22,447 bases of DNA, taken from positions 1 through 22,447 of IMG/VR virus record IMGVR_UViG_3300021140_000043; one strand, 5' to 3'. The notes beneath the pieces were generated by a model, which had not been told where the DNA came from, did no database searches, and saw only the letters and a program-made list of their open reading frames with translations. The translations under genes and the position numbers were made by a program. The stretch comes from a virus. Below, in pieces: positions 2,125 to 17,109 of this stretch; the first letter of the stretch is position 1; each line of letters begins with the position of its first letter.

Positions 2125-3699
2125 ATGGAATTAAATGAACTCCTAAATGAGAGGGAGTGGCGTCTTTGTCGTGGTCCTGACGATGCTTCTCCTAGCGACC
2201 TTGCTGATGCGTTTGAACATTTTTGTTCTACGTATTGGTTCATTAGGCATCCTGAGCGTGGACGTATCCTGTTTGAGATGCGTGAGGCACAGGTTGAGAC
2301 TGTGTATGCTTGGATTTCTAATCGTAACAGTATCGTTTTGAAGGCCCGTCAGATTGGGTTTTCTACGTTGGCTGCGGCTTTTGCTTTTTGGGAGGTGTTC
2401 TTTTGGCCTGACCGTTTTGAGGTTATGTTGAGCCGTACCGAGCGTGAGGCGGCTAAGTTGTTACAAAAATCTAAGTATGGGTATAAGATGTTGCCTGACT
2501 GGATGCGTCAACGGGGTCCTGGTTTGGTGTCGGATAATCAGTTGAAGATGGTGTTTAGTAATGAATCTGCTCTTGAGTCTCTTCCTAGTGGTAATGACCC
2601 TGCTCGTGGTGAATCCGTTTATCGTGTCTTTATTGATGAGATGGCGTTTCTTCCGAACTCTGAGGAAGCCTGGGCGTCTATTGAACCGATTGCCGATGTG
2701 GGTGGTCGTATTGTATGTTTATCCACCGCTAAGGGTGAGGGGAATATATTTCATAGGCTTTGGGTTGGGTCACAGACTGGGACGAATGATTTCAAAGGTA
2801 TTTTCTTTCCTTGGTCGGCGGGTGACCGTGATGAGGAGTGGTACGAGGTAAAGAAGGCCCAACTGCCTGATTGGCAGTTAGCCCAGGAGTATCCTAGCGA
2901 CCCTGAGGAGGCTTTTGTACGGTCGGGGCGACCTGTATTCGATTTGGATGTTTTGCGTGCCCTAGAGGTTTCTGAGCCTGATAGGGGGCATTTGTTTTAT
3001 GGTGAGTGGATTGAGTTCCGTCGTGATGGTGGTCCGTTGTCTGTGTGGCAGGAACCTGAGTTGGGTACTGTTTATTGTGTCGGTGCCGACGTTGCTGAAG
3101 GTTTGGGTCATGGTGACTATAGTGTGGCTCATGTTATTAATGCTCATACAGGTGATGTGGTTGCTGTGTGGCATGGCCATATTGACCCTGACTTGTTTGG
3201 GTCTGATGTTTTGTTTGATTTGGGTGATTGGTATAATCATGCGTTGATTGGTGTTGAGTCTAACAACCATGGTTTAACCACGCTGAAGGCTTTGCAGCGT
3301 GTGGGTTATCGTAATATTTATCGTCAGCGTCGTTTGGCTCAGCGTTCTCCTCAGGCTACTGAGGTGTTGGGTTGGCGTACTTCGGCTGCTTCTAAGCCGT
3401 TGGCTATTGACGAGTTGGCTAAGGCGTTGCGTGATGCTGATTTGGGTTTGATGGATGCTAATACTGTTGCTGAGTTGCGAACGTTTGTTCGTGAAGAGAA
3501 CGGTAAGATGCATGGTTCTCCTCATGACGACCGTGTTATGGCGTTGGCTATTGCTAATCAGATGTTGAAACATGTGTGGCTTCCTGAGTATACTCCTGAT
3601 TTGGCTCCACCTAGGTACTCTTTTGATTGGTGGGCTACTCAAGTGACACGTGAAAAGCCTGAAAAGTTTATTATTGGGTCGTTTAATACTCGCAGGTAA
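2125..3699 (+). CDS. terL: terminase large subunit
   Basis: This is the packaging ATPase and nuclease, 524 aa, a normal length. The N-terminal ATPase shows an adapted Walker A, KARQIGFST (residues 73-81), and a Walker B, VFIDE (168-172), followed by a C-motif-like CLSTAKGEG. The C-terminal RNase H-like nuclease keeps the expected acidic residues: Asp322 in GADVAEG, Glu378 in GVESNNHG, and Asp468-Asp469 in SPHDDRVMALA. All catalytic positions are therefore present and the gene appears intact. The start ATG has no Shine-Dalgarno site and follows a T-rich stretch. Codons end strongly in T. It sits behind the small terminase and the zinc knuckle and ahead of small membrane genes and the portal, as in many podoviruses. 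Confidence 0.95.
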   Translation: MELNELLNEREWRLCRGPDDASPSDLADAFEHFCSTYWFIRHPERGRILFEMREAQVETVYAWISNRNSIVLKARQIGFSTLAAAFAFWEVFFWPDRFEVMLSRTEREAAKLLQKSKYGYKMLPDWMRQRGPGLVSDNQLKMVFSNESALESLPSGNDPARGESVYRVFIDEMAFLPNSEEAWASIEPIADVGGRIVCLSTAKGEGNIFHRLWVGSQTGTNDFKGIFFPWSAGDRDEEWYEVKKAQLPDWQLAQEYPSDPEEAFVRSGRPVFDLDVLRALEVSEPDRGHLFYGEWIEFRRDGGPLSVWQEPELGTVYCVGADVAEGLGHGDYSVAHVINAHTGDVVAVWHGHIDPDLFGSDVLFDLGDWYNHALIGVESNNHGLTTLKALQRVGYRNIYRQRRLAQRSPQATEVLGWRTSAASKPLAIDELAKALRDADLGLMDANTVAELRTFVREENGKMHGSPHDDRVMALAIANQMLKHVWLPEYTPDLAPPRYSFDWWATQVTREKPEKFIIGSFNTRR

Positions 3700-4140: not shown

Positions 4141-4337
4141 ATTCTATTTTAACTAAAACACAGCAGGCGGCACTTCACTCGTATTTGCGTTCTGTGCTTG
4201 CAACCACTATCGCTGCTGTTATGGCTGGGGCTAAAGACTGGTCCAGCATTGGGGCTGCTTTTATTGCAGCCGCATTGCCACCTATCATGCGCTATTTGAA
4301 TCCTAACGATTCAGGGTTTGGTGTAGGGTCTAAGTAA
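4137..4337 (+). CDS. putative holin, 66 aa
   Basis: From the ATG at 4137 (GGGAAGGAAC site upstream; ATGA overlap with the previous stop) the protein is 66 aa. It has a short polar N-terminus, a hydrophobic segment SVLATTIAAVMAG (about 17-29), a second one SSIGAAFIAAALPPIM (about 34-49), and a tail YLNPNDSGFGVGSK. The LPP-x-M-R-x-LNPND ending is a pattern I associate with small actinophage holins. It would form membrane lesions to release endolysin, but no endolysin lies nearby. A longer frame from 4113 adds eight charged residues and is less likely. Its TAA overlaps the portal ATG (TAATG). Confidence 0.65.
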   Translation: MNSILTKTQQAALHSYLRSVLATTIAAVMAGAKDWSSIGAAFIAAALPPIMRYLNPNDSGFGVGSK

Positions 4338-6157
4338 TGGCTCGTCCAGCGAATCGTGACGTTCTAGCGTCTTACCGTAAAAAGATTGACCATTCCCGTA
4401 AATGGCGTAAGGAAGAGAAGTACGACAAACTTTGGCGTCGTATGATTGACCTCTACAAGGGTAAGCATTACCTTCAGGTTTCTGAAGAGGACAGAATGCT
4501 TGTAAACGTCTGTTTTGCTACTATCAACGTTATTGGGCCTAGTGTGGCTGTTAACCATCCTAAGATTACGGTGGGTGCACGCAAGGCTGAAGATGGCGAT
4601 AAAGCCATCATCACGGAAGCCATTATTAACTATTGGTGGCGTCATTATGATTGCCAGAAGCAGATGCGCCGTGCTGTTGATGACTATCTGATTCTTGGTC
4701 ATGGCTGGCTTAAAACTGGTTATCGTTTTATTGAGGAAGAAAAACTGAGCAAAGCAGCACCTGATGATGAAGGCGAATACACAGACCCTACTCAGGGTAT
4801 GTCTTTGGAGAGCCAGTTGGTTGTTGTTGAGGACCGTCCTTTTGTTGAGCGTGTCTCACCGTTTGATGTTTTTATAGACCCTGATGCTACCAGCATTGAT
4901 GATGCCAAGTGGATTGCACAGCGTGTGCGTCGCCCTATGGTTGACGTCAAGAATGACCCTAAGTATAACCGTCGTGCCCGTGAGGATTGCCAGGCTTCGC
5001 ATTACAGCAAATGGTCTGAAGATGATGGTAAGGCTAGAATGTCTCGTAAAGAGGAAGATGGCTATGTTGACGTGTGGGAATTTTATGATATTCGCCGCCA
5101 AATCATGGCTGTCTTCTGTGATGGTGGGGATAACTTCTTGATTAATCCACATAAGATGCCATATGCTTTTGGGCATCCTTTTGTTATGCTACGCAACTAT
5201 GATGTTCCCGAGCATTTCTACCCCATGGGTGAACTAGAGGCCATTGAACCTTTGCAGTATGAATTGAACGAGACACGCACACAGATGATGAACCATCGTA
5301 AGCGTTTCGCACGCAAGTGGTTGTATAAGGAATCAGCGTTCGACCAGGATGGTCGTGCAGCGTTAGAGTCTGATGAGGATAACGTTATGGTGCCTGTTGT
5401 TTCGGATGAACCTATTGGTGGTGTTGTTTCTTCAATGCCTGCAATTGTTAACCCACCTGAACTGTACACCATTTCGGGTACTATCACACAAGACATTGAC
5501 CGTATCAGTGGTGTTGCTGAGTTTATGCGTGGCGGCTCATCAGAGATTAGCCGTACTGCTACAGAGTCGGCTATGATGCAGGACGCCATGAATGCTCGTA
5601 CTTCAGACAAACTGGCTGAAGTTGAGCGTGCTATCGCATCAGCGGCTAAACGTCTTGTCGGGCTTGCACAGCAGTATATGACTGGCGAGCAGGTTGCTCG
5701 TGTTGTTGGTTCAGGTGCTATGCCTATTTGGGTTAACTTTGACCGTGACTATATTCAGGGGGAGTTTGATTTTGAAGTTGAGGCTGGCTCTACGCAACCT
5801 GTCAATGAATCTTTCCGTCGTCAGATGGCACTACAAATGGTTGATGCTATGGCGCCGTTTGTTGGCGCAGGTGTTGTGGATATGGCGGCGTTAGCCCGTC
5901 ATGTATTGCAATTCGGTTTTGGTGTTAAAACACCTGAAGCATTCTTGGCTCAACCTGCACCTCAGGGACCTGTAGGTCCTGATGGTCAACCCATGCAAGG
6001 CCCACCTCCTGGTGGTCCTGAAATGGGTGGCGCACCGATGCCAGGCATGGAAGAGGCACCACCTGCTGGTGGTATGCCGATGCCAAGTTCTATTCCACCA
6101 CAGGTGTTGGCTGCTATTGCCAACCAAACTGGTGGTTTACCAAACACACAAATGTAA
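4337..6157 (+). CDS. portal protein
   Basis: This 606-aa protein is the dodecameric portal through which DNA is packaged and to which the tail attaches. The start, MARPANRDVLASYRKKIDHS, is followed by a typical podovirus portal body: DRMLVNVCFATINVIGPSVA, a YLILGHGWLKTGYRF block, a VSPFDVFIDPDATSIDDAKW block, a PHKMPYAFGHPFVMLRNY block, and a long helical segment with EISRTATESAMMQDAMN and VERAIASAAKRLVGLAQQYM. These match P22-like portal organisation. Residues from about 540 onward form a Pro/Gly/Met-rich low-complexity tail (PQGPVGPDGQPMQGPPPG), probably disordered and exposed inside the head. The stop TAA begins the GTAACGA element of the next transcription unit. Confidence 0.9.
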   Translation: MARPANRDVLASYRKKIDHSRKWRKEEKYDKLWRRMIDLYKGKHYLQVSEEDRMLVNVCFATINVIGPSVAVNHPKITVGARKAEDGDKAIITEAIINYWWRHYDCQKQMRRAVDDYLILGHGWLKTGYRFIEEEKLSKAAPDDEGEYTDPTQGMSLESQLVVVEDRPFVERVSPFDVFIDPDATSIDDAKWIAQRVRRPMVDVKNDPKYNRRAREDCQASHYSKWSEDDGKARMSRKEEDGYVDVWEFYDIRRQIMAVFCDGGDNFLINPHKMPYAFGHPFVMLRNYDVPEHFYPMGELEAIEPLQYELNETRTQMMNHRKRFARKWLYKESAFDQDGRAALESDEDNVMVPVVSDEPIGGVVSSMPAIVNPPELYTISGTITQDIDRISGVAEFMRGGSSEISRTATESAMMQDAMNARTSDKLAEVERAIASAAKRLVGLAQQYMTGEQVARVVGSGAMPIWVNFDRDYIQGEFDFEVEAGSTQPVNESFRRQMALQMVDAMAPFVGAGVVDMAALARHVLQFGFGVKTPEAFLAQPAPQGPVGPDGQPMQGPPPGGPEMGGAPMPGMEEAPPAGGMPMPSSIPPQVLAAIANQTGGLPNTQM

Positions 6158-6179
6158 CGAAACAACTACTACTATAGAG
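6154..6179 (+). promoter_or_regulatory. T7-type promoter-like element ahead of scaffold and capsid
   Basis: GTAACGA at the portal stop is followed by ACTATAGAG, with the predicted start G at 6177. The leader of about 28 bases contains a good Shine-Dalgarno site (TGGAG) before the scaffold ATG. Together with the copy at 15776 it has the fullest core, ACTATAGAG. Strong transcription would suit scaffold and capsid. Confidence 0.5.
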
Positions 6180-6204
6180 CAACCATTTTGGACTCTGGAG
6201 AATT

Positions 6205-7005: not shown

Positions 7006-7944
7006 ATGTCGAACCCGAACTTTGACGCACTACTCTCAACTACACTTGCGAACTATCGTGACAAGTTGACCGACAACGTGTTTACCGCACGTCCACTTAC
7101 ATACTGGCTTAGTGACAAGAGTCGTATCCAAACCGAATCTGGTGGTACGAAAATTGTTGAGCAGTTGATTTATGGTCAGAACAGCACTGTTGCTTCGTAC
7201 TCAGGTTACGAAACACTCAGCCTTACACCACAAGATGGTATTTCGGCTGCTGAATACGACTGGAAGCAATATGGTGCTTCAATCGCTATCAGCGGTATTG
7301 AAGAGGCTAAGAACAATGGCGAGCATGCTATTATTAACTTGCTTGAGGCTAAGATTATGCAGGCTGAAGAGTCATTGCGTGAAGGCTTTAACCAAATGTT
7401 CTTTGCTGATGGCACAGGCAACTCTGGTAAGAACTGGAACGGTCTTGGTAACCTTGTTGAGTCAGGTAACACCGTTGGTGGTATTAACTCGGCTACAGCA
7501 GGTAACGAATACTGGCGTTCATATGAGGAAAACACCGCTGGTGCTTTGACTCTTCTTCAGATGGCGACTGCTTATAACAGCGTGTCTGTTGGTAACGACC
7601 ATCCTGACGTTATCCTTACAACTCAAACATTGTTTGAAAAGTATGAATCACTTCTGCAACCACAGTTGCGTTACACTGATACAAAGACAGCAGATGCTGG
7701 TTTCCAGAACCTTCTGTTCAAGTCTGCGCCTATCATGTACGACGTTCACTGTACAGCAGGTGTTATGTACTTCTTGAACTCTAAGTACATCAAACTTGTT
7801 GGTCACTCTGACAAGTGGTTTGCACAGACCGATTTCGTTCGCCCTGAGAACCAGGACGCACGTTTCGCTCTTATCATGTGCTACGGTAACCTTGTTGTTT
7901 CTAACCGTAAGAAGCAAGGTAAGTTGACCGCAAAGACTGCCTAG
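7006..7944 (+). CDS. major capsid protein, HK97-like
   Basis: This 312-aa protein begins MSNPNFDALLSTTLANYRDK and contains GGTKIVEQLIYGQNSTV, YETLSLTPQDGISAAEYDWK, an ISGIEEAKNNGE segment, EAKIMQAEESLREGFNQMFF and a NPDVILTT-like block (HPDVILTTQTLFEKYE). I associate this pattern with HK97-fold capsid proteins of podoviruses and some siphoviruses. The strongest ribosome site in the window (AGGAGG, 7 bases before ATG) and codons with many C-ending AAC, GAC, TAC and ATC point to very high expression. A GC-rich hairpin 21 bases after the stop may shape the mRNA end. Position behind the scaffold and abundance signals make the call firm. Confidence 0.9.
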   Translation: MSNPNFDALLSTTLANYRDKLTDNVFTARPLTYWLSDKSRIQTESGGTKIVEQLIYGQNSTVASYSGYETLSLTPQDGISAAEYDWKQYGASIAISGIEEAKNNGEHAIINLLEAKIMQAEESLREGFNQMFFADGTGNSGKNWNGLGNLVESGNTVGGINSATAGNEYWRSYEENTAGALTLLQMATAYNSVSVGNDHPDVILTTQTLFEKYESLLQPQLRYTDTKTADAGFQNLLFKSAPIMYDVHCTAGVMYFLNSKYIKLVGHSDKWFAQTDFVRPENQDARFALIMCYGNLVVSNRKKQGKLTAKTA

Positions 7945-8841: not shown

Positions 8842-9536
8842 GCACAACACAGGAACTGATTACGTTCGTTAGAGACATCACCGATTTGGACGAGGCAGAT
8901 TTGCCTTCGTCTCTTGTTGTTTCTTACCTTAAAGATGGGTTTCAACGTATTATAAACTTGGAGCGTCGCTGGCCGTTTCTTGAAACTACCTACACATTGT
9001 CTACTGTCGCTGGACAACGTGACTATGCCACCAGTTCTATCGGGTCTGGAAACCTACGTGAGGTCACCAGTGTCTTGGATAACTCTACCAGTGGTAATCG
9101 TCTTAGTTTGATTTCTATTGATGAGGCTGAAGCCGTATGGCACGGCTCATTTGATACCCCTACCCGTCCTTTGTTTTATGCAGAGTGGGGAGATGTTATT
9201 AAATTGTATCCTAAGCCTGATACCGTGTATCCGTTGACGGTTCGTGGATACCGCAAGGCTAGTTACACTTGGACCACCAGTTTAAATACAGAAGTGGATT
9301 GCGATGAGCGTCTGCATAACGCCATCGCATACTATGCTGTGGCGCAAGCCTACAAGAGGCAGGAAGACCCTGAGTTGTCTAACGTGTATAAGCAGTCGTT
9401 TGATGAGGCTGTTATGTTGGCTCGTAAAGAGTTGATGCGTGCCAATGGTCATCGCCCTATGGTGATGTCTAGAGGGTTTGTGCGTCCTAGTGAGAAGTAT
9501 TGGCTTGAGTCTTTGGGTAGAACGCTGGGTCAATAA
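8838..9536 (+). CDS. head-tail adaptor (tail tubular A-like)
   Basis: This 232-aa protein is probably the adaptor ring between portal and tail nozzle in short-tailed phages. It starts MSTTQELITFVRDITDLDEA, has a helix with SLVVSYLKDGFQRIINLERRWPFLE (about residues 26-50), a beta domain around TYTLSTVAGQRDYATSS, and late helices ERLHNAIAYYAVAQAYKRQEDPE. The long N-terminal helical region with an R-W-x-F-L-E block and late Y-x-A-x-A-x-A-Y helix is typical of such adaptors (gp11-like and P22 gp4-like). AGGAG precedes the ATG, and the gene overlaps both neighbours (ATGA in front, TAATG behind), fixing it in a nozzle operon. Confidence 0.75.
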   Translation: MSTTQELITFVRDITDLDEADLPSSLVVSYLKDGFQRIINLERRWPFLETTYTLSTVAGQRDYATSSIGSGNLREVTSVLDNSTSGNRLSLISIDEAEAVWHGSFDTPTRPLFYAEWGDVIKLYPKPDTVYPLTVRGYRKASYTWTTSLNTEVDCDERLHNAIAYYAVAQAYKRQEDPELSNVYKQSFDEAVMLARKELMRANGHRPMVMSRGFVRPSEKYWLESLGRTLGQ

Positions 9537-11143
9537 TGTCTACAATGCGTGTTTTTCGTCAGGATGATTTTACTGGTGGGCTTAATCTTAGGGCCGACCA
9601 GTTTCAACTCGCCCCGAATGAATCGCCACGTATGTTGAATGTTGAGATTGACCCTCGTGGTGGTGTTTTTAGTCGTGGCGCTATGCGCCGTATTAATACT
9701 AGTCCTGTTTCTGGTGCTTGGCGTCCTAAGAATCTTGTTCCGTTTTATACGGGAACTAATTCTTATGTTATGTTGTCTACTGGGTTTGCATCTGCCGTTA
9801 ACGGCGATGTGCACTACTCTACAGGTGGTAACTTCAGCCCTTTAAGCATCCCTGTCAGTGCACGGGATGGTGCTAGTTTTGCACCATGGGGTGACACTCT
9901 CTATATTGCTACTGGCTCCGATACTGTGTCATACAAATGGAACGGCACATCCACAACCGCTTTGAGTGCTTCTGGACCTACATGGCAGGAATCATACACT
10001 ACTGGTTTGTCAGGTGTTCATTTTCCCAAGGCTAAGCACACGGTTACGCACGCAGGTAAAGTGTTTGTTGCTAATACAAACGAGAACGGTGTTGCTCGTC
10101 CCAATATTGTTAGGTGGTCGCATCCTAACAGCCCTGGCAACTGGGCCTCTAATGACTTTATTGAAATAAATGATGGTGGAGCAGAAATTACTGCGTTGAC
10201 TGTTTACGCTGGTCACCTCTTGGTGTTTAAGCGTGATTCTGTATATGCAATATTTGGTTATGATTCTGACACTTTCCAGGTTGTCGAGATTTCTCGTACT
10301 GTTGGTGCAGCAACACCGCATGCTGTGACAACAACTGAACGTGGTGTTTATTTCTTTTCATATCCTGAAGGTTTGATGTATTACGATGGCAAATCGTTGC
10401 GTGACATTTTTGAACCTGTCCGTCCTGCTATTATAAACAACGCTATTAACGCCAGTATTTCTACGCAGGTTTTTGTTAACAATATTAACCGTCGTATCTG
10501 GGTTTCTGTTCCTTACAGTGAAACAGCATCAGAAACTATTTCTACTGCTTCTTTTATTTTTGACCCAACTATTGGTAATGGTGCCTGGCTGTTGTTTTCA
10601 ACAGCAGACAATCGTGGGTTAAACGGTGGTTGTGATTTTATTGAACCATCTTTAGGGACAATCAAGCATTTGGGTGTTCATTCTACCCAGCCTTATGTTT
10701 TATCTGTTGATGAATACAATAATTCTTACGACAATATTACAGGAACTAACTATCAGTTTACTGCTCGTTACCGCACACGCTGGATTGATGGCGGGTCGTA
10801 TTCTCAAAAGAAAATGTTTCGACGTCCCGAGGTTGTTGTTAAACAGCAAAACATTCAGGGTGGTTTAATTGTTAAAGCCTATGCTGATTATGAAGAGGCA
10901 GATAACGGTGAAATTAAACAGTATACTTTGACTATTCCTAGTTCAGGTTTGGGAATGGTTTGGGGTACTACTCTTTGGAATGCATCCAATTGGGGTGCAC
11001 CAAACTCGGGTTCTCAACTTATTACTGGACGCAGTATCGGTCTTGCCAAGACTATACAGTTAGAGTTTACAGGTCCTGTTGGTACCGCTTGGGGTATCAA
11101 TAGTTTTACATTAAAATACAATCCTAGGAGGGTTACAGCATAA
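9536..11143 (+). CDS. tail nozzle / tail tubular B-like protein
   Basis: This 535-aa beta-rich protein opens with FRQDDFTGGLNLRADQFQLA and PNESPRMLNVEIDPRGG. That opening is typical of nozzle-type proteins of podoviruses (T7 gp12-like or P22 gp10-like). The middle repeats short blade-like stretches (APWGDTLYIATGSDTVSYKW; HAGKVFVANTNENG; VYAGHLLVFKRDSVYAIFG; TERGVYFFSYPEGLMYYDG) that suggest a beta-propeller. The C-terminal third turns to beta-sandwich-like sequence (TARYRTRWIDGGSYSQKK). It would extend the portal-adaptor channel and hold the fibres. It begins by TAATG coupling with the adaptor and ends the same way before the collar fibre. Confidence 0.8.
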   Translation: MSTMRVFRQDDFTGGLNLRADQFQLAPNESPRMLNVEIDPRGGVFSRGAMRRINTSPVSGAWRPKNLVPFYTGTNSYVMLSTGFASAVNGDVHYSTGGNFSPLSIPVSARDGASFAPWGDTLYIATGSDTVSYKWNGTSTTALSASGPTWQESYTTGLSGVHFPKAKHTVTHAGKVFVANTNENGVARPNIVRWSHPNSPGNWASNDFIEINDGGAEITALTVYAGHLLVFKRDSVYAIFGYDSDTFQVVEISRTVGAATPHAVTTTERGVYFFSYPEGLMYYDGKSLRDIFEPVRPAIINNAINASISTQVFVNNINRRIWVSVPYSETASETISTASFIFDPTIGNGAWLLFSTADNRGLNGGCDFIEPSLGTIKHLGVHSTQPYVLSVDEYNNSYDNITGTNYQFTARYRTRWIDGGSYSQKKMFRRPEVVVKQQNIQGGLIVKAYADYEEADNGEIKQYTLTIPSSGLGMVWGTTLWNASNWGAPNSGSQLITGRSIGLAKTIQLEFTGPVGTAWGINSFTLKYNPRRVTA

Positions 11144-11904: not shown

Positions 11905-12287
11905 TGCCTATAGAAACCCCAAGAGATAAACCAGAGTTGCAGATTTGGACTGCACCTTTAATGGAAGCACTCCGTTCATCGGATGCTTCCACTCTTCAGC
12001 ATATCTTCACTTCACTTAAGGAGTATCTGCGTGGTGTTCAAACAACCATCAGTTCAAACTACTACAACCTAAATATTGGTTCTGTATCGGTGGGTACAGC
12101 AGCCGCTAGTATCACTGGCACGTTTCCGAATCAAAACTTAAATCTTGTTTTACAAACTGGACCTGCTGGGCCGACTGGCCCTACAGGCCCGCAAGGTATC
12201 CCTGGGTATTCTATTTTAAACATTGACGGTGGAGCACCTGATTCTATTTATGGTGGTATACCTGTTATTGATTGTGGGAGTATCTAA
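11904..12287 (+). CDS. short fibre protein with collagen-like end
   Basis: This 127-aa protein has an N-terminal non-repetitive part ([20 protein letters not shown]; a helix then a beta-rich stretch, residues 1-80). A short Gly-x-y run [19 protein letters not shown] (about 86-104) and a compact end ([20 protein letters not shown]) follow. It is probably a connector that anchors the long collagen-like fibre encoded next, or a subunit that trimerises with it. It is coupled by TAATG at both ends. I know no exact family; the role is inferred from composition and from lying between two fibre genes. Confidence 0.65.
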
Positions 12288-13546
12288 TGGCTATTATTGT
12301 TCAATACCGTCGTGGCACAGCCGCACAATGGACCAGCACTAATCCTGTATTAGCGATTGGCGAGCCTGGTTATGAAACTGATACAGGCAAGTTTAAGGTT
12401 GGTAACGGTACGCAAACGTGGAGTTTGCTTCCGTATTCTAGTGGCACTGTAGGTCCGACTGGTGCGACTGGTGCTACAGGCGCAACAGGCATTCAGGGTC
12501 CACAAGGTATTCAGGGCTTGACTGGTGCTACTGGTCCTGTAGGGGCTACTGGCCCTACTGGCCCTACTGGCCCTACTGGACCTATTGGTCTTACAGGAGC
12601 CACAGGAGCCACAGGAGCGACTGGACCGCAAGGTCCGCAGGGTGACACAGGGGATACTGGTCCTGTCGGCCCTACGGGGCCTACAGGCGCTACTGGAGCG
12701 ACTGGGGCGACTGGTCCCACGGGTCCAACAGGGGTGACTGGTGCTGGATATTTTGGTGTTACTTCTAACACATCAAACACTATTGGAGTTGGCTCAAAAA
12801 CTTTTACCATTTCATCTCCATCTCCAAACGCATACCAGTCTGGTCAACGAGCACGAGCAATAAATCCAACATCACCAACAAACTACATGGAAGGCGTTAT
12901 TACGGTATCGCTATCTACCTTAACCATGACTGTAGATACGGTTGGTGGTTCTGGGACTCATGGCATATGGAGTTTTTCTCTTGCTGGCAATGTTGGTCTT
13001 ACGGGTCCGACTGGTCCGACTGGTCCGACTGGTCCAACTGGACCTACTGGTCTTACTGGTGATACAGGTCCTACTGGTCCGACTGGTGCGACGGGTCCAA
13101 CAGGTGCTACTGGTGCTGATTCTACTGTTCCTGGCCCTACGGGTCCTGCTGGTGCTACGGGGGCTACGGGTCCTGCTGGACCCATCGGACCTACAGGCGC
13201 CACGGGCGCCACAGGCGCTACTGGTGCTACGGGTGGTTTTAACTCAACACAAATAATTAACGCACAGCACAATGCTACCTATTCTTTGGTGATTTCTGAC
13301 TTAGGAAAAATGATTACAACAAGCCATGGAACCGCTGTTACTATAACCGTTAATGCGTCTTTAGGTTTAGTGCCTGGACAGTCTATTGATTTTTTACAAT
13401 TGGGCAACGGACAGGTAACTATAAACCCTGGTACAGCCACGGTCCACGGAACTCCAGGACTTAAGTTAAGGGCAAAACATTCTTCGGCATCACTGTTTTG
13501 TACAGCAACAGACGAGTATGTTTTGATTGGCGATTTGAGCGCATAA
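12287..13546 (+). CDS. collagen-like tail fibre with Mtd-type N-terminus
   Basis: Starting at the TAATG junction (12287; an ATG at 12272 adds five unlikely residues), the product is 419 aa. Residues 1-48 ([20 protein letters not shown], then [21 protein letters not shown]) match the virion-attachment domain seen at the N-terminus of the major tropism determinant (Mtd) and many fibres. Two collagen-like blocks follow (about 55-153 and 237-317), mostly GPT and GAT triplets, separated by an 80-residue beta-rich domain. The C-terminal domain (about 318-419; [15 protein letters not shown] ... [13 protein letters not shown] ... YVLIGDLSA) is a recurrent fibre tip. It should form a trimeric rod carrying a receptor-binding tip. 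Confidence 0.85.
12451..12745 (+). repeat. collagen-like Gly-x-Thr repeat block 1
   Basis: About 33 consecutive Gly-x-y triplets, mainly GPT and GAT. Tandem copies of CCTACTGGC and similar 9-mers occur around 12550-12580, so length change by slippage or recombination is likely. Confidence 0.8.
12994..13236 (+). repeat. collagen-like Gly-x-Thr repeat block 2
   Basis: About 27 Gly-x-y triplets, again GPT/GAT rich and including tandem GGTCCGACT repeats near 13005-13035. A short break ([10 protein letters not shown]) splits the block. Confidence 0.8.
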
Positions 13547-14688
13547 TGCCAATCCGTAGAGGAACGTTTGCTTCAAGCATGACTGGATTGCCTATTGCTA
13601 TAATCGGGGCTGTAACAAACTTCAATCAAGACAAGGCGACATTTAACGCTATCGTAAGTGCCGAGTATCAAAGTACCACAGTTAAGTTTCAATACAACAC
13701 AACAAACAACTTTGCTTCTTACACTGAAGTTACTGCTGCTAATTCTCCTGTAACCAGTCAATCTGTTGCTGCTTATTTTAACGCTACTGGTTTGTCTGTT
13801 GGGACTACCTACTATGTTCGTGCTGTTGTGAGCAACATTATTGGTACTGTTACTACTTCTTCTGTTTCGTTTACCACTTGGAGTCTTAAGACTTATTTAA
13901 ATACTACGGCTGGTTCATACACTGTAAGTGTTCCTTCTATCACACCAACTGGTGGTGTGGCAATAGCGCCAACTATTTATGAAATGCTTGTTTACGGTGG
14001 AGGAGGTTCAGCGGCTTATGGAGGCGGTGGAGGAGGCGGTTATCGTATATCAGGAAGCACACAATCCAATACGGGTGGAACGCAGTCAGTTACCATCCAA
14101 GTTGGTGCAGGTGGACCATACAACAGTTCTACCTCATTGCCTGCACCAGCAGGTCAAAATTCTATTGTAATTTTTGGTTCAACAACTTGGACTGCTGGTG
14201 GTGGTTTAGGTGGTGGATGGCTTACTAACGCCGCAGGTAGTGTAGGTACTGGAACAAACCCAGCACATGCTGGTGGGGTTGGTTACTACGGTTACACATA
14301 TATTTCTGGTTACAATCAATGGACAGACCCATCATGTGGATGTTGTGCAACTGATAAATTCGGCTTTTGTGAGACATACTGCACATGCAATAACCCCAAT
14401 AGCCCTATCTACTCAACTGATTACAGCCGCTACGCAGGTGGTGGCGGTGGAGGAACTGACTCTGCTGGAGGGACTGCTGGTTATCCAGACGTAGGTGGAA
14501 CTGGTGGAGCAGGAGGTGGCGCATACGGCTTGCGGGGTGGTAATGGCGGTGGCGGTGGAGGCACAAGCAGTGCTGGAGCCGCAGGTTCAGTACCAGCAGG
14601 TTCAGGTCCAATCGTAGGTACTGGTGGTACTGGTTGGTGGAATGGTGGCGTTGCTGGCGGTGTAACATTCAAATACTACGGACCATAA
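13546..14688 (+). CDS. glycine-rich receptor-binding-type fibre/adhesin
   Basis: From the TAATG start at 13546 (a frame from 13498 adds 16 residues inside the previous gene) the protein is 380 aa. Residues 1-125 include a fibronectin-III-like sandwich (TTVKFQYNTTNNFASYTEV ... LSVGTTYYVRAVVSN). Then come long Gly runs (YGGGGSAAYGGGGGGGYRI; from about 300 GGGGGGTDSAGG and GGNGGGGGGTSSAG). Glycine-rich sandwiches like this build adhesin tips of T-even-type fibres (S16 gp38 is a known example). A cluster of six Cys at about 264-283 (SCGCCATDKFGFC-ETYCTC) interrupts the Gly-rich part and might bind metal or form disulfides. It probably recognises the cell surface. Fold assignment is by composition only. 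Confidence 0.75.
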   Translation: MPIRRGTFASSMTGLPIAIIGAVTNFNQDKATFNAIVSAEYQSTTVKFQYNTTNNFASYTEVTAANSPVTSQSVAAYFNATGLSVGTTYYVRAVVSNIIGTVTTSSVSFTTWSLKTYLNTTAGSYTVSVPSITPTGGVAIAPTIYEMLVYGGGGSAAYGGGGGGGYRISGSTQSNTGGTQSVTIQVGAGGPYNSSTSLPAPAGQNSIVIFGSTTWTAGGGLGGGWLTNAAGSVGTGTNPAHAGGVGYYGYTYISGYNQWTDPSCGCCATDKFGFCETYCTCNNPNSPIYSTDYSRYAGGGGGGTDSAGGTAGYPDVGGTGGAGGGAYGLRGGNGGGGGGTSSAGAAGSVPAGSGPIVGTGGTGWWNGGVAGGVTFKYYGP

Positions 14689-14695
14689 GGAAATT

Positions 14696-15787
14696 ATGAT
14701 TACAGTAAAACCATTTAACTTGGAAGTTTTGTCAACACACAAAGGATTCTTTTTGCTTGACGAACTTCCCAAACACGCAACAGAAGTTGATGTGTGGGTA
14801 CAAACTCCAGCAGGTAATGAGTCTGTTGATTTTGTTGACATATTTAGTATGGCAGATGGCTCCTTGCTTGCTGCATGGAAACATCCATTTCAAAAGATAC
14901 AGAACCTTCAGGCTTTCTGTGACGGGGTAACACAGGTTTTAAGTTTATACATTGTTGAGAGGGTTTTTGATGTTTACGATAAATCACCAGATTCAGAGTA
15001 TGGAACATTTATTTTTTGCCCGTCTGTTCATGTGGAGGGTGCCGACTGGCGCTGCGACCAAAACATGTACGGACCTAGGTCGTTTAAAGGTGAAAAGGTT
15101 GCTCAAATAATAAACAGTTTAGATGAAATTGTTTATTATGAACCATTCTTAAATGTCTGCGGTGCTGGACATATTATATATATCGAAACAAGAACAAAGT
15201 CAGAACTTGCAAACGAAAAATTAAACAACAGCATAATCCCTGTTACGGGAAGAACATTTCAGGAATGTTTGCGTTTGGTTTATGAATGGTCTGTGCTTGC
15301 TGAAGAACCTTTCAACTCAAAAGATGATGCCGCCGTTGCGGCTTCAAAGTTTATTAAATCTTTGAAACTGACAGAACAGGAAATTGGGGAAATTAATAGT
15401 CTTCCACAGATGCAGGTATCTAAGTTTATTTTGGGTTCTGAAACTGCAAGACTGCGGGATATGGAAATACCTGAATTGTCTGAAGGGATTGTGAATATTC
15501 TTTTCAAGCGTATTGCGGCAAGCACGTTGTCTTTTATCGTTTCCCGAAATCCTAGTATTTGGGATTTTGATGAAATCAAAAATCAGGAGATACTTCAGAT
15601 GGAAATGGGCATTCAAAGGTTTAGGGAATACTATAAACTGCCAGAAGACATGGATATCGAGGATGGGAATAAGGTTTTGGACCATGCTTTTATTTATTTC
15701 GAAAAACAGCATTCCTATGTGTACACACAGTTAAGGAACTTTAGAAACAAGAAGAAAGTCCTTGATGGGCTGGAGGTAACGAAATGA
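14696..15787 (+). CDS. unrecognised 363-aa protein inside the structural block
   Basis: AAGGAA lies just before the ATG. The protein looks soluble and well folded, with no Gly-rich, collagen or coiled-coil signature. The N-terminal half is beta-rich (LSTHKGFFLLDELPKHATEV; VDVWVQTPAGNESVDFVD). Cys-containing stretches follow (FIFCPSVHVEGADWRCDQN), and the C-terminal half is helical and charged (ASKFIKSLKLTEQEIGEIN; EIKNQEILQMEMGIQRFREY). I do not recognise a family. Codons favour A and T endings such as AAA, ACA, CCA and GAA, unlike the GGT/GCT/CGT-heavy neighbours, hinting at separate acquisition. The next promoter-like element begins inside its last codons (GTA ACG A), so transcription restarts behind it. 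It might be a fibre chaperone, a host-takeover factor or an accessory gene; none of these is supported by sequence. Confidence 0.7.
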   Translation: MITVKPFNLEVLSTHKGFFLLDELPKHATEVDVWVQTPAGNESVDFVDIFSMADGSLLAAWKHPFQKIQNLQAFCDGVTQVLSLYIVERVFDVYDKSPDSEYGTFIFCPSVHVEGADWRCDQNMYGPRSFKGEKVAQIINSLDEIVYYEPFLNVCGAGHIIYIETRTKSELANEKLNNSIIPVTGRTFQECLRLVYEWSVLAEEPFNSKDDAAVAASKFIKSLKLTEQEIGEINSLPQMQVSKFILGSETARLRDMEIPELSEGIVNILFKRIAASTLSFIVSRNPSIWDFDEIKNQEILQMEMGIQRFREYYKLPEDMDIEDGNKVLDHAFIYFEKQHSYVYTQLRNFRNKKKVLDGLEVTK

Positions 15788-15800
15788 CGTACTATAGAGG
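15776..15800 (+). promoter_or_regulatory. T7-type promoter-like element inside a gene end
   Basis: GTAACGA here is read as Val-Thr codons, not as a stop, so its conservation is not explained by stop-codon context. ACTATAGAGG follows with start G at 15797. The leader is 10 bases and begins with GAGG, which could serve as the ribosome site for ATG 15807. Confidence 0.5.
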
Positions 15801-15806
15801 ATTTGT

Positions 15807-16248: not shown

Positions 16249-17109
16249 ATGGCCGTAGCAAAAGATGAGGGTCCAGCAACCAAGGGGCTGGTTGGTGTTA
16301 AAGATAAAAAATCTAAAACACCTAAGGGTGGTACTTCGTACACTGGTGCTTCGGGTCAGTATGCTTGGCGTAAGCCTGCACCTGTTGGTACTGCGATAAC
16401 GCCACAGCAACAAAACATAAAGTCTCCTGCTCAAATTGCTAGGGAAGCAGCCATCATTGCCAAAGATGGAGCATTGACTGGTGTCGGAGGTGGAGGTGGT
16501 GCTGGTGGTCCTAGTCCACTTGACCGCTATACACAGGCTATTCAGGGTATGCTTACTAGTGGTTCGTATCGTCAACCACAGGATGATTTGCTTGCTAAAC
16601 TTACCGAAATGTATGGTCAGGCACAGCCACAGATTAATACTGCTATGGATAGTTTGACTGGTTTTCTTCAGGGGCAGTCTAATCCTTATGCTGGTTTGCA
16701 GGCTCAAACAACGCAGGTTACGCCTCAGTTGTCTGAGTTGCTTCAGTCGCAAGGTGTTGACCAAACTCCTTTGCAACAGTTGGCTGCTGTAACGCAGGCA
16801 CAGAACACTGGTCAGTCTGATGCGTTTCAAAACCTGATTGGTTCTATGCAGAACATGTGGCAGGGTAACCAGGCTGGGCAGATTTCTGATGTGGCTGCAC
16901 AGAGGGCTGGTTTGCAAACGCAATTAGAGAATTCTAGATTGGGTGCTGGTACACAGTTGAACACTCAGGCTGCTGGTCAACAGCAGGATTTGATGAAGAT
17001 GTTGCTGGAGGCGTTGTCTAAAGGTGGACGACCTAACAAGGGTGGGTTGTTTGGTGAAAGCAACACGGCTGCAAGGCTACCAATCAAAGTTGGAAGAAAA
17101 GGTAAATAA
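16249..17109 (+). CDS. probable internal virion protein, 286 aa
   Basis: AGGAGG precedes the ATG. The N-terminus is basic and disordered-looking (KDEGPATKGLVGVKDKKSK), then a Gly stretch (GVGGGGGAGGPS at about residue 81). A long Gln/Leu/Ala-rich helical region follows (AKLTEMYGQAQPQINTAMD; LQAQTTQVTPQLSELLQSQ; QQQDLMKMLLEALSKGG), and the C-terminus is basic (ARLPIKVGRKGK). The repeated Gln-rich amphipathic helices resemble internal core or ejection proteins. It is coupled to the next gene by TAATG. The family is unknown; the location after the tail genes is the main evidence. Confidence 0.6.
   Translation: MAVAKDEGPATKGLVGVKDKKSKTPKGGTSYTGASGQYAWRKPAPVGTAITPQQQNIKSPAQIAREAAIIAKDGALTGVGGGGGAGGPSPLDRYTQAIQGMLTSGSYRQPQDDLLAKLTEMYGQAQPQINTAMDSLTGFLQGQSNPYAGLQAQTTQVTPQLSELLQSQGVDQTPLQQLAAVTQAQNTGQSDAFQNLIGSMQNMWQGNQAGQISDVAAQRAGLQTQLENSRLGAGTQLNTQAAGQQQDLMKMLLEALSKGGRPNKGGLFGESNTAARLPIKVGRKGK

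Follow-up and report, generated by a model that had tools for sequence, protein, structure and literature searches.

Genomic context of P0001

The window, by which we mean the whole stretch of DNA analysed (a 22.4-kb virus contig, positions 1-22,447 of its IMG/VR record), carries a podovirus-like virion operon with the following features.

2125-3699: terminase (terL)
4337-6157: portal, P22-like
from 6205: scaffold-like gene
7006-7944: major head protein (MCP; phrog_9953)
9536-11143, plus strand: nozzle-like virion protein (phrog_3287), which opens the variable fibre slot
from 11143: collar-type fibre
12287-13546, plus strand: collagen-like fibre with an Mtd_N N-terminus
13546-14688, plus strand: Gly-rich fibre/adhesin with an FnIII-like N-terminus, the obligate upstream neighbour of the P0001 family
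14696-15787, plus strand: P0001, 363 aa, proposed partner or chaperone of the Gly-rich fibre
15776-15801, plus strand: GTAACGAAA(n5-7)TACTATAGAG element (the two motifs span 15776-15799), overlapping the last P0001 codons
15807-16247, plus strand: conserved 146-aa gene, which closes the variable fibre slot in relatives

P0001 begins after a 7-nt gap behind the Gly-rich gene, runs from ATG to TGA and encodes a protein of ~42 kDa; several genes follow it in the operon, the last of them a very long ORF. The frame is intact in a sibling contig (G001, also designated L085; 34.8 kb), with 99.7% protein identity. Because it is open and near-identical in this sibling and has 71 distinct homologues, P0001 is a real gene. 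As noted in the initial annotation, it resembles neither of the gene sets around it, the fibre genes at 12287-14688 on one side and the small genes of the virion region from 15807 on the other.

That annotation had also described the codons of P0001 as foreign-looking and richer in A/T endings than those of its neighbours, and neither description was borne out. Corrected for amino acids, the synonymous GC3 of P0001 is 0.334, where the other genes would predict 0.354 (z -0.8); that of its upstream neighbour is lower still (0.264). The codon-usage distance of P0001 (z +3.8) is smaller than those of terL (+9.4), the MCP (+7.1) and the Gly-rich gene (+5.0). Its low GC (0.384) is due to codon position 2 (GC2 0.32), that is, to amino-acid content. 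One Rfam match inside the gene (RF02778) reached 21 bits against a threshold of 50 bits and was attributed to chance.

Searches for known families

The view of P0001 as an unrecognised gene was upheld, the family being absent from the curated libraries searched: P0001 had no significant match in Pfam, PHROGs, NCBIfam or PADLOC, nor among PDB sequences. A tblastn search of about 50,700 phage records yielded no relative, no cultured phage searched carries P0001, and two scans of bacterial genomes for the host likewise returned none. When 36 family members were compared with PF16778 and other tail-chaperone models, nothing matched at E<=0.1, and the PADLOC models gave no match for the same members. 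Several weak candidates were discarded: Pfam/NCBIfam matches to a FabV FAD domain, glutaredoxin and HAD were below cut-off or partial, the recurring Pfam match Eno-Rase_FAD_bd was below cut-off and covered ~40 residues, and a tblastn match in Vibrio phage pTD1 had an E of 0.4.

A swap slot in related phages

We located relatives of the window through the major head protein and compared the 36 loci that contained both flanking genes. P0001 was found in three (L009, L014 and L016), each time with the Gly-rich gene. Neither a collagen-like nor a Gly-rich fibre was present in 29 relatives, and in the other four the collagen fibre was followed by genes other than the pair: three beta-type fibre-like proteins and one small protein in L005, a further collagen protein in L010, a VanY-type peptidase in L013, and, in the slot position of P0001, a Phage_tail_APC (PF16778) tail-assembly chaperone in L018. 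L005 is 98% identical to the window across 6.8 kb, yet lacks the Gly-rich/P0001 pair, and thus the interval from the nozzle gene to the 146-aa gene is a swap slot. P0001 is not present in all relatives with the same operon, as a standard structural protein of the virion would be in this phage group, nor did it show the clear homology to a standard family shared by all relatives that would have spoken against the initial annotation.

P0001 is paired with the Gly-rich fibre gene

With the FnIII-like N-terminal part of the Gly-rich protein as query, a scan of viral contigs yielded 80 loci; the reverse scan, with the P0001 family alignment, gave 139, of which 80 were taken. Pooling both sets and making them distinct left 71 distinct P0001 family members among the loci kept. 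A P0001 relative came next in practically every FnIII-scan locus with enough sequence. Conversely, every family member with upstream coverage was preceded by a Gly-rich fibre gene (70 recognised by HMM and one truncated Gly-rich ORF by eye). A family member lay directly 3' of 66 of the 70 Gly-rich/FnIII matches; the four exceptions are weak matches to other proteins, namely two FnIII proteins of 529 aa without a Gly-rich character, and L017 and L026, which show that some more distant FnIII/Gly-rich proteins occur without P0001. Spacing between the two genes was mostly a gap of 6-12 nt or a short overlap.

The genes found 3' of P0001 form 12 clusters unrelated to one another, terL, glycosyltransferases and the 146-aa gene among them, and the pair is therefore a unit and not a product of general synteny. 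Contigs carrying the family reach 148 kb, so the backgrounds differ. On backgrounds other than that of the window, P0001 is often followed by a glycosyltransferase gene (phrog_13126, phrog_3408). A gene of 345-354 aa found 3' of P0001 in many contigs, considered as a tandem paralogue, is a glycosyltransferase and no copy of P0001. The C-terminal ~100 aa of the collagen-like fibre (about 13238-13543 in the window) also turn up 5' of the Gly-rich gene in phages of other backgrounds. P0001 is no isolated insertion: it invariably accompanies the Gly-rich fibre gene next to it and closes a mobile fibre cassette made up of the collagen-like fibre, the FnIII/Gly-rich fibre and P0001.

As a separate observation on placement, the cassette stands directly 5' of a terL gene that is 63-66% identical to that of the window in L106, L153, L155-L163, L167, L168, L170 and L180, a position that differs from the one in the window's genome.

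The Gly-rich gene and P0001 travel together between unrelated viruses. L009 belongs to the window's phage group, whereas no capsid or nozzle gene of the window has a match in the flank of L098; across these different backgrounds P0001 is 85% and the Gly-rich protein 89% identical. Within one group, L009 and L016 share 93% identity in the collagen C-terminus but only 40% in P0001 and 51% in the Gly-rich protein, which locates the breakpoints of exchange after the collagen gene and ahead of the pair. The distance matrix of P0001 correlated with that of the Gly-rich protein at r=0.65 (0 of 1000 permutations as high), whereas the collagen C-terminus gave 0.30. The correlation is imperfect: with P0001 at 28% identity, the FnIII part can still be 80% identical, so that this part recombines separately.

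Predicted structure and conservation

An AlphaFold model of P0001 built from 36 sequences (pLDDT 88.8, pTM 0.86) consists of a beta-rich part (residues 1-165) and an all-helical part (169-359). An earlier model from 15 sequences had a pLDDT of 72, and its fold search gave no information. With the whole chain as Foldseek query, through which a small shared domain could escape, nothing significant was found in the PDB (best E 0.09, TM below 0.2). Foldseek against BFVD gave three matches, all uncharacterised proteins of uncultured Caudovirales phages: A0A6J5NMD2 and A0A6J5QQQ2 share the P0001 fold (TM 0.93 and 0.90) and A0A6J5R3D4 does so partially. At 22-32% identity to P0001, these three are members of its family. 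The polar residues R119, C120, E149, E190, E197 and R252 are invariant, and the last helical segment (291-363) is the most variable part of the protein.

In alignments the Gly-rich proteins have variable central loops within a conserved Gly frame. Rate profiles along P0001 and the Gly-rich protein did not clearly separate a chaperone from a tip protein. One class of Gly-rich proteins (alignment A3) has a variable insert rich in Cys and Tyr, seen for instance as CNPY or CYQT repeats in L014, L092 and L095; this insert is likely a receptor-contact loop.

A probable assembly chaperone for the fibre tip

Our combined findings suggest that P0001 is a dedicated partner of the upstream Gly-rich fibre protein, and probably its intermolecular assembly chaperone. 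We favour a chaperone because of the obligate pairing, the joint transfer, the close spacing, a beta-then-helical order like that of gp25 of phage Pam3, and the Phage_tail_APC protein in the slot of L018. The analogy is one of function: P0001 would work like a fibre chaperone, with no claim of membership in a known chaperone family. The initial annotation had suggested a novel accessory function, mostly for reasons that do not hold; the accessory distribution stands, whereas the function is probably fibre-tip maturation and not an unrelated accessory role.

We infer the following sequence of events. With their reading frames so close together, the Gly-rich protein and P0001 would be made side by side. 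As the fibre protein emerges, P0001 may grip its flexible, Gly-rich distal region through the N-terminal beta domain. The helical C-terminal part of P0001 would meanwhile oligomerise, probably as a trimer, and keep the fibre chains aligned with one another until the tip has folded, whereupon the chaperone would be released. Being specific to that tip, P0001 would have to move with it, and the pair is swapped, as a putative host-recognition cassette, both in the virion-operon slot and between unrelated phages.

Known systems offer parallels of layout. In Pam3, the chaperone gene gp25 lies 11 nt behind the Gly-rich fibre gene gp24; gp25 grips the TNF-like and Gly-rich domains with an N-terminal beta-sandwich, and has a C-terminal helical trimerisation domain. 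With gp25, far more of the trimeric fibre is obtained in soluble form, and virions contain no gp25 (PMC9608196). P0001 shares with the gp24-gp25 system (PDB 7YPX) its position, spacing and partner type and, judging from the model, its domain order. However, hhalign of P0001 with gp25 gave a probability of 0.4% (E 0.17), and P0001 did not match 7YPX, which is in the PDB sequence library. Moreover, gp25 has 162 aa versus 363 aa, the conservation pattern is reversed between the two, and P0001 had no Foldseek match to a solved structure, so that only the layout is alike. The Gly-rich domain, too, is no more similar to Pam3 gp24 than glycine composition would give, and homology between the two was rejected. 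Like Tfa/Phage_tail_APC proteins (PF16778; TfaMu), P0001 stands directly behind a fibre gene, and the PF16778 protein of L018 occupies the same slot, but there is no sequence homology between them. Alteromonas phage V22 encodes a receptor-binding protein (RBP) and a new type of intermolecular chaperone (gp26-gp27); this chaperone, of 21.8 kDa and with a DUF4376 domain, is needed for RBP maturation and absent from the final complex (PMC7289586). It too was encoded by a previously unrecognised gene 3' of the RBP gene, and the pair resembles that of Pam3 but with an unrelated chaperone; however, the P0001 family has no DUF4376 match, and no tblastn match of P0001 in the phage collection was credible.

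In the main rival explanation, P0001 remains on the Gly-rich tip for good, as a virion component that serves as a distal fibre subunit or an accessory receptor-binding protein. Obligate pairing and co-transfer are equally expected for such a protein, and a fixed structural subunit would give identical gene linkage, which counts against the specificity of the chaperone argument. Tip proteins are commonly encoded last in a fibre cassette, the P0001 model has a substantial beta domain, and its 42 kDa are twice the size of known fibre chaperones (about 20 kDa). Nonetheless, we regard a permanent component as plausible but less likely: the Gly-rich protein, with its loops and Gly frame, is already tip-like, and P0001 is half helical, carries no collagen, Gly-rich, collar or other fibre motifs, and matched no fibre or adhesin fold.

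Another reading is that P0001 acts as an enzyme on the fibre, whether collagen-like or Gly-rich, or on the host surface, by glycosylation or hydroxylation for instance. This reading would fit the collagen-like partner gene, the glycosyltransferases that often come next elsewhere, and the six invariant polar residues; it is improbable given that no enzyme family scored above cut-off, Eno-Rase_FAD_bd included, and that the PDB fold search returned no enzyme fold. The accessory distribution and unfamiliar fold could also be those of an unrelated moron or counter-defence gene hitch-hiking behind a fibre gene. This idea is largely refuted, and we give it very little credence, since members with upstream coverage always stand beside the same fibre gene across the 12 downstream contexts, and none of the 36 members scanned matched PADLOC.

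We put forward tentatively that the family may be a structurally new class of proteins for fibre maturation, whose fold resembles no solved structure. Its members would work with FnIII/Gly-rich adhesins only, adhesin and helper making up a self-contained cassette for host range that very different uncultured phages exchange. Receptor-binding tips set which bacteria a phage infects, and tips that need a dedicated helper cannot move alone. With about 70 distinct members, the family accounts for an unannotated gene in many uncultured phage genomes and offers a marker for the receptor-binding genes in them, and the pairing tells which two genes to co-express for a functional adhesin.

Putative regulatory elements and other observations

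P0001 had been reported to be followed by a fresh promoter-like element that starts inside its last codons. The sequence is conserved and does start there, whereas no sigma-70 promoter was called at 15776-15801 and a promoter role remains putative. The window contains two GTAACGAAA...TACTATAGAG copies in total, the second at 6154-6179, at the end of the portal gene and 5' of the scaffold gene; both overlap the end of one gene just ahead of the next. Upstream of 15807, GGTAACGAAA is kept as DNA in L009, L014, L016 and L018 (with one change in L018) and is read in a different frame in relatives (GNETEV versus EVTK ends), which argues that it belongs to the downstream gene and not to the P0001 protein. 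The element at 15776-15801 is thus a probable regulatory element of the downstream gene.

Directly 5' of the scaffold-like gene (window 6154-6204), a conserved AGAGCAACC...GGACTCT sequence is kept in relatives whose scaffold-like protein is only about 45% identical, and it could be a hairpin or regulatory RNA.

Five sequences are consistent with the core of a type II hammerhead ribozyme (stem II-GAAA-stem III-UH-stem I-CUGANGA), a type described in PMC3088659. They lie among minus-strand genes, at 16745, 16412 and 16155 on the minus strand of L085 and at 2969 and 2499 on that of L016, and show compensatory stem changes; the L085 copies were not called by Rfam. The minus-strand gene region of L085 also holds four near-palindromic TGTGATAGAGGTCTATCAC copies (about 15112, 16157, 16743 and 17235), and this sequence is probably an operator.
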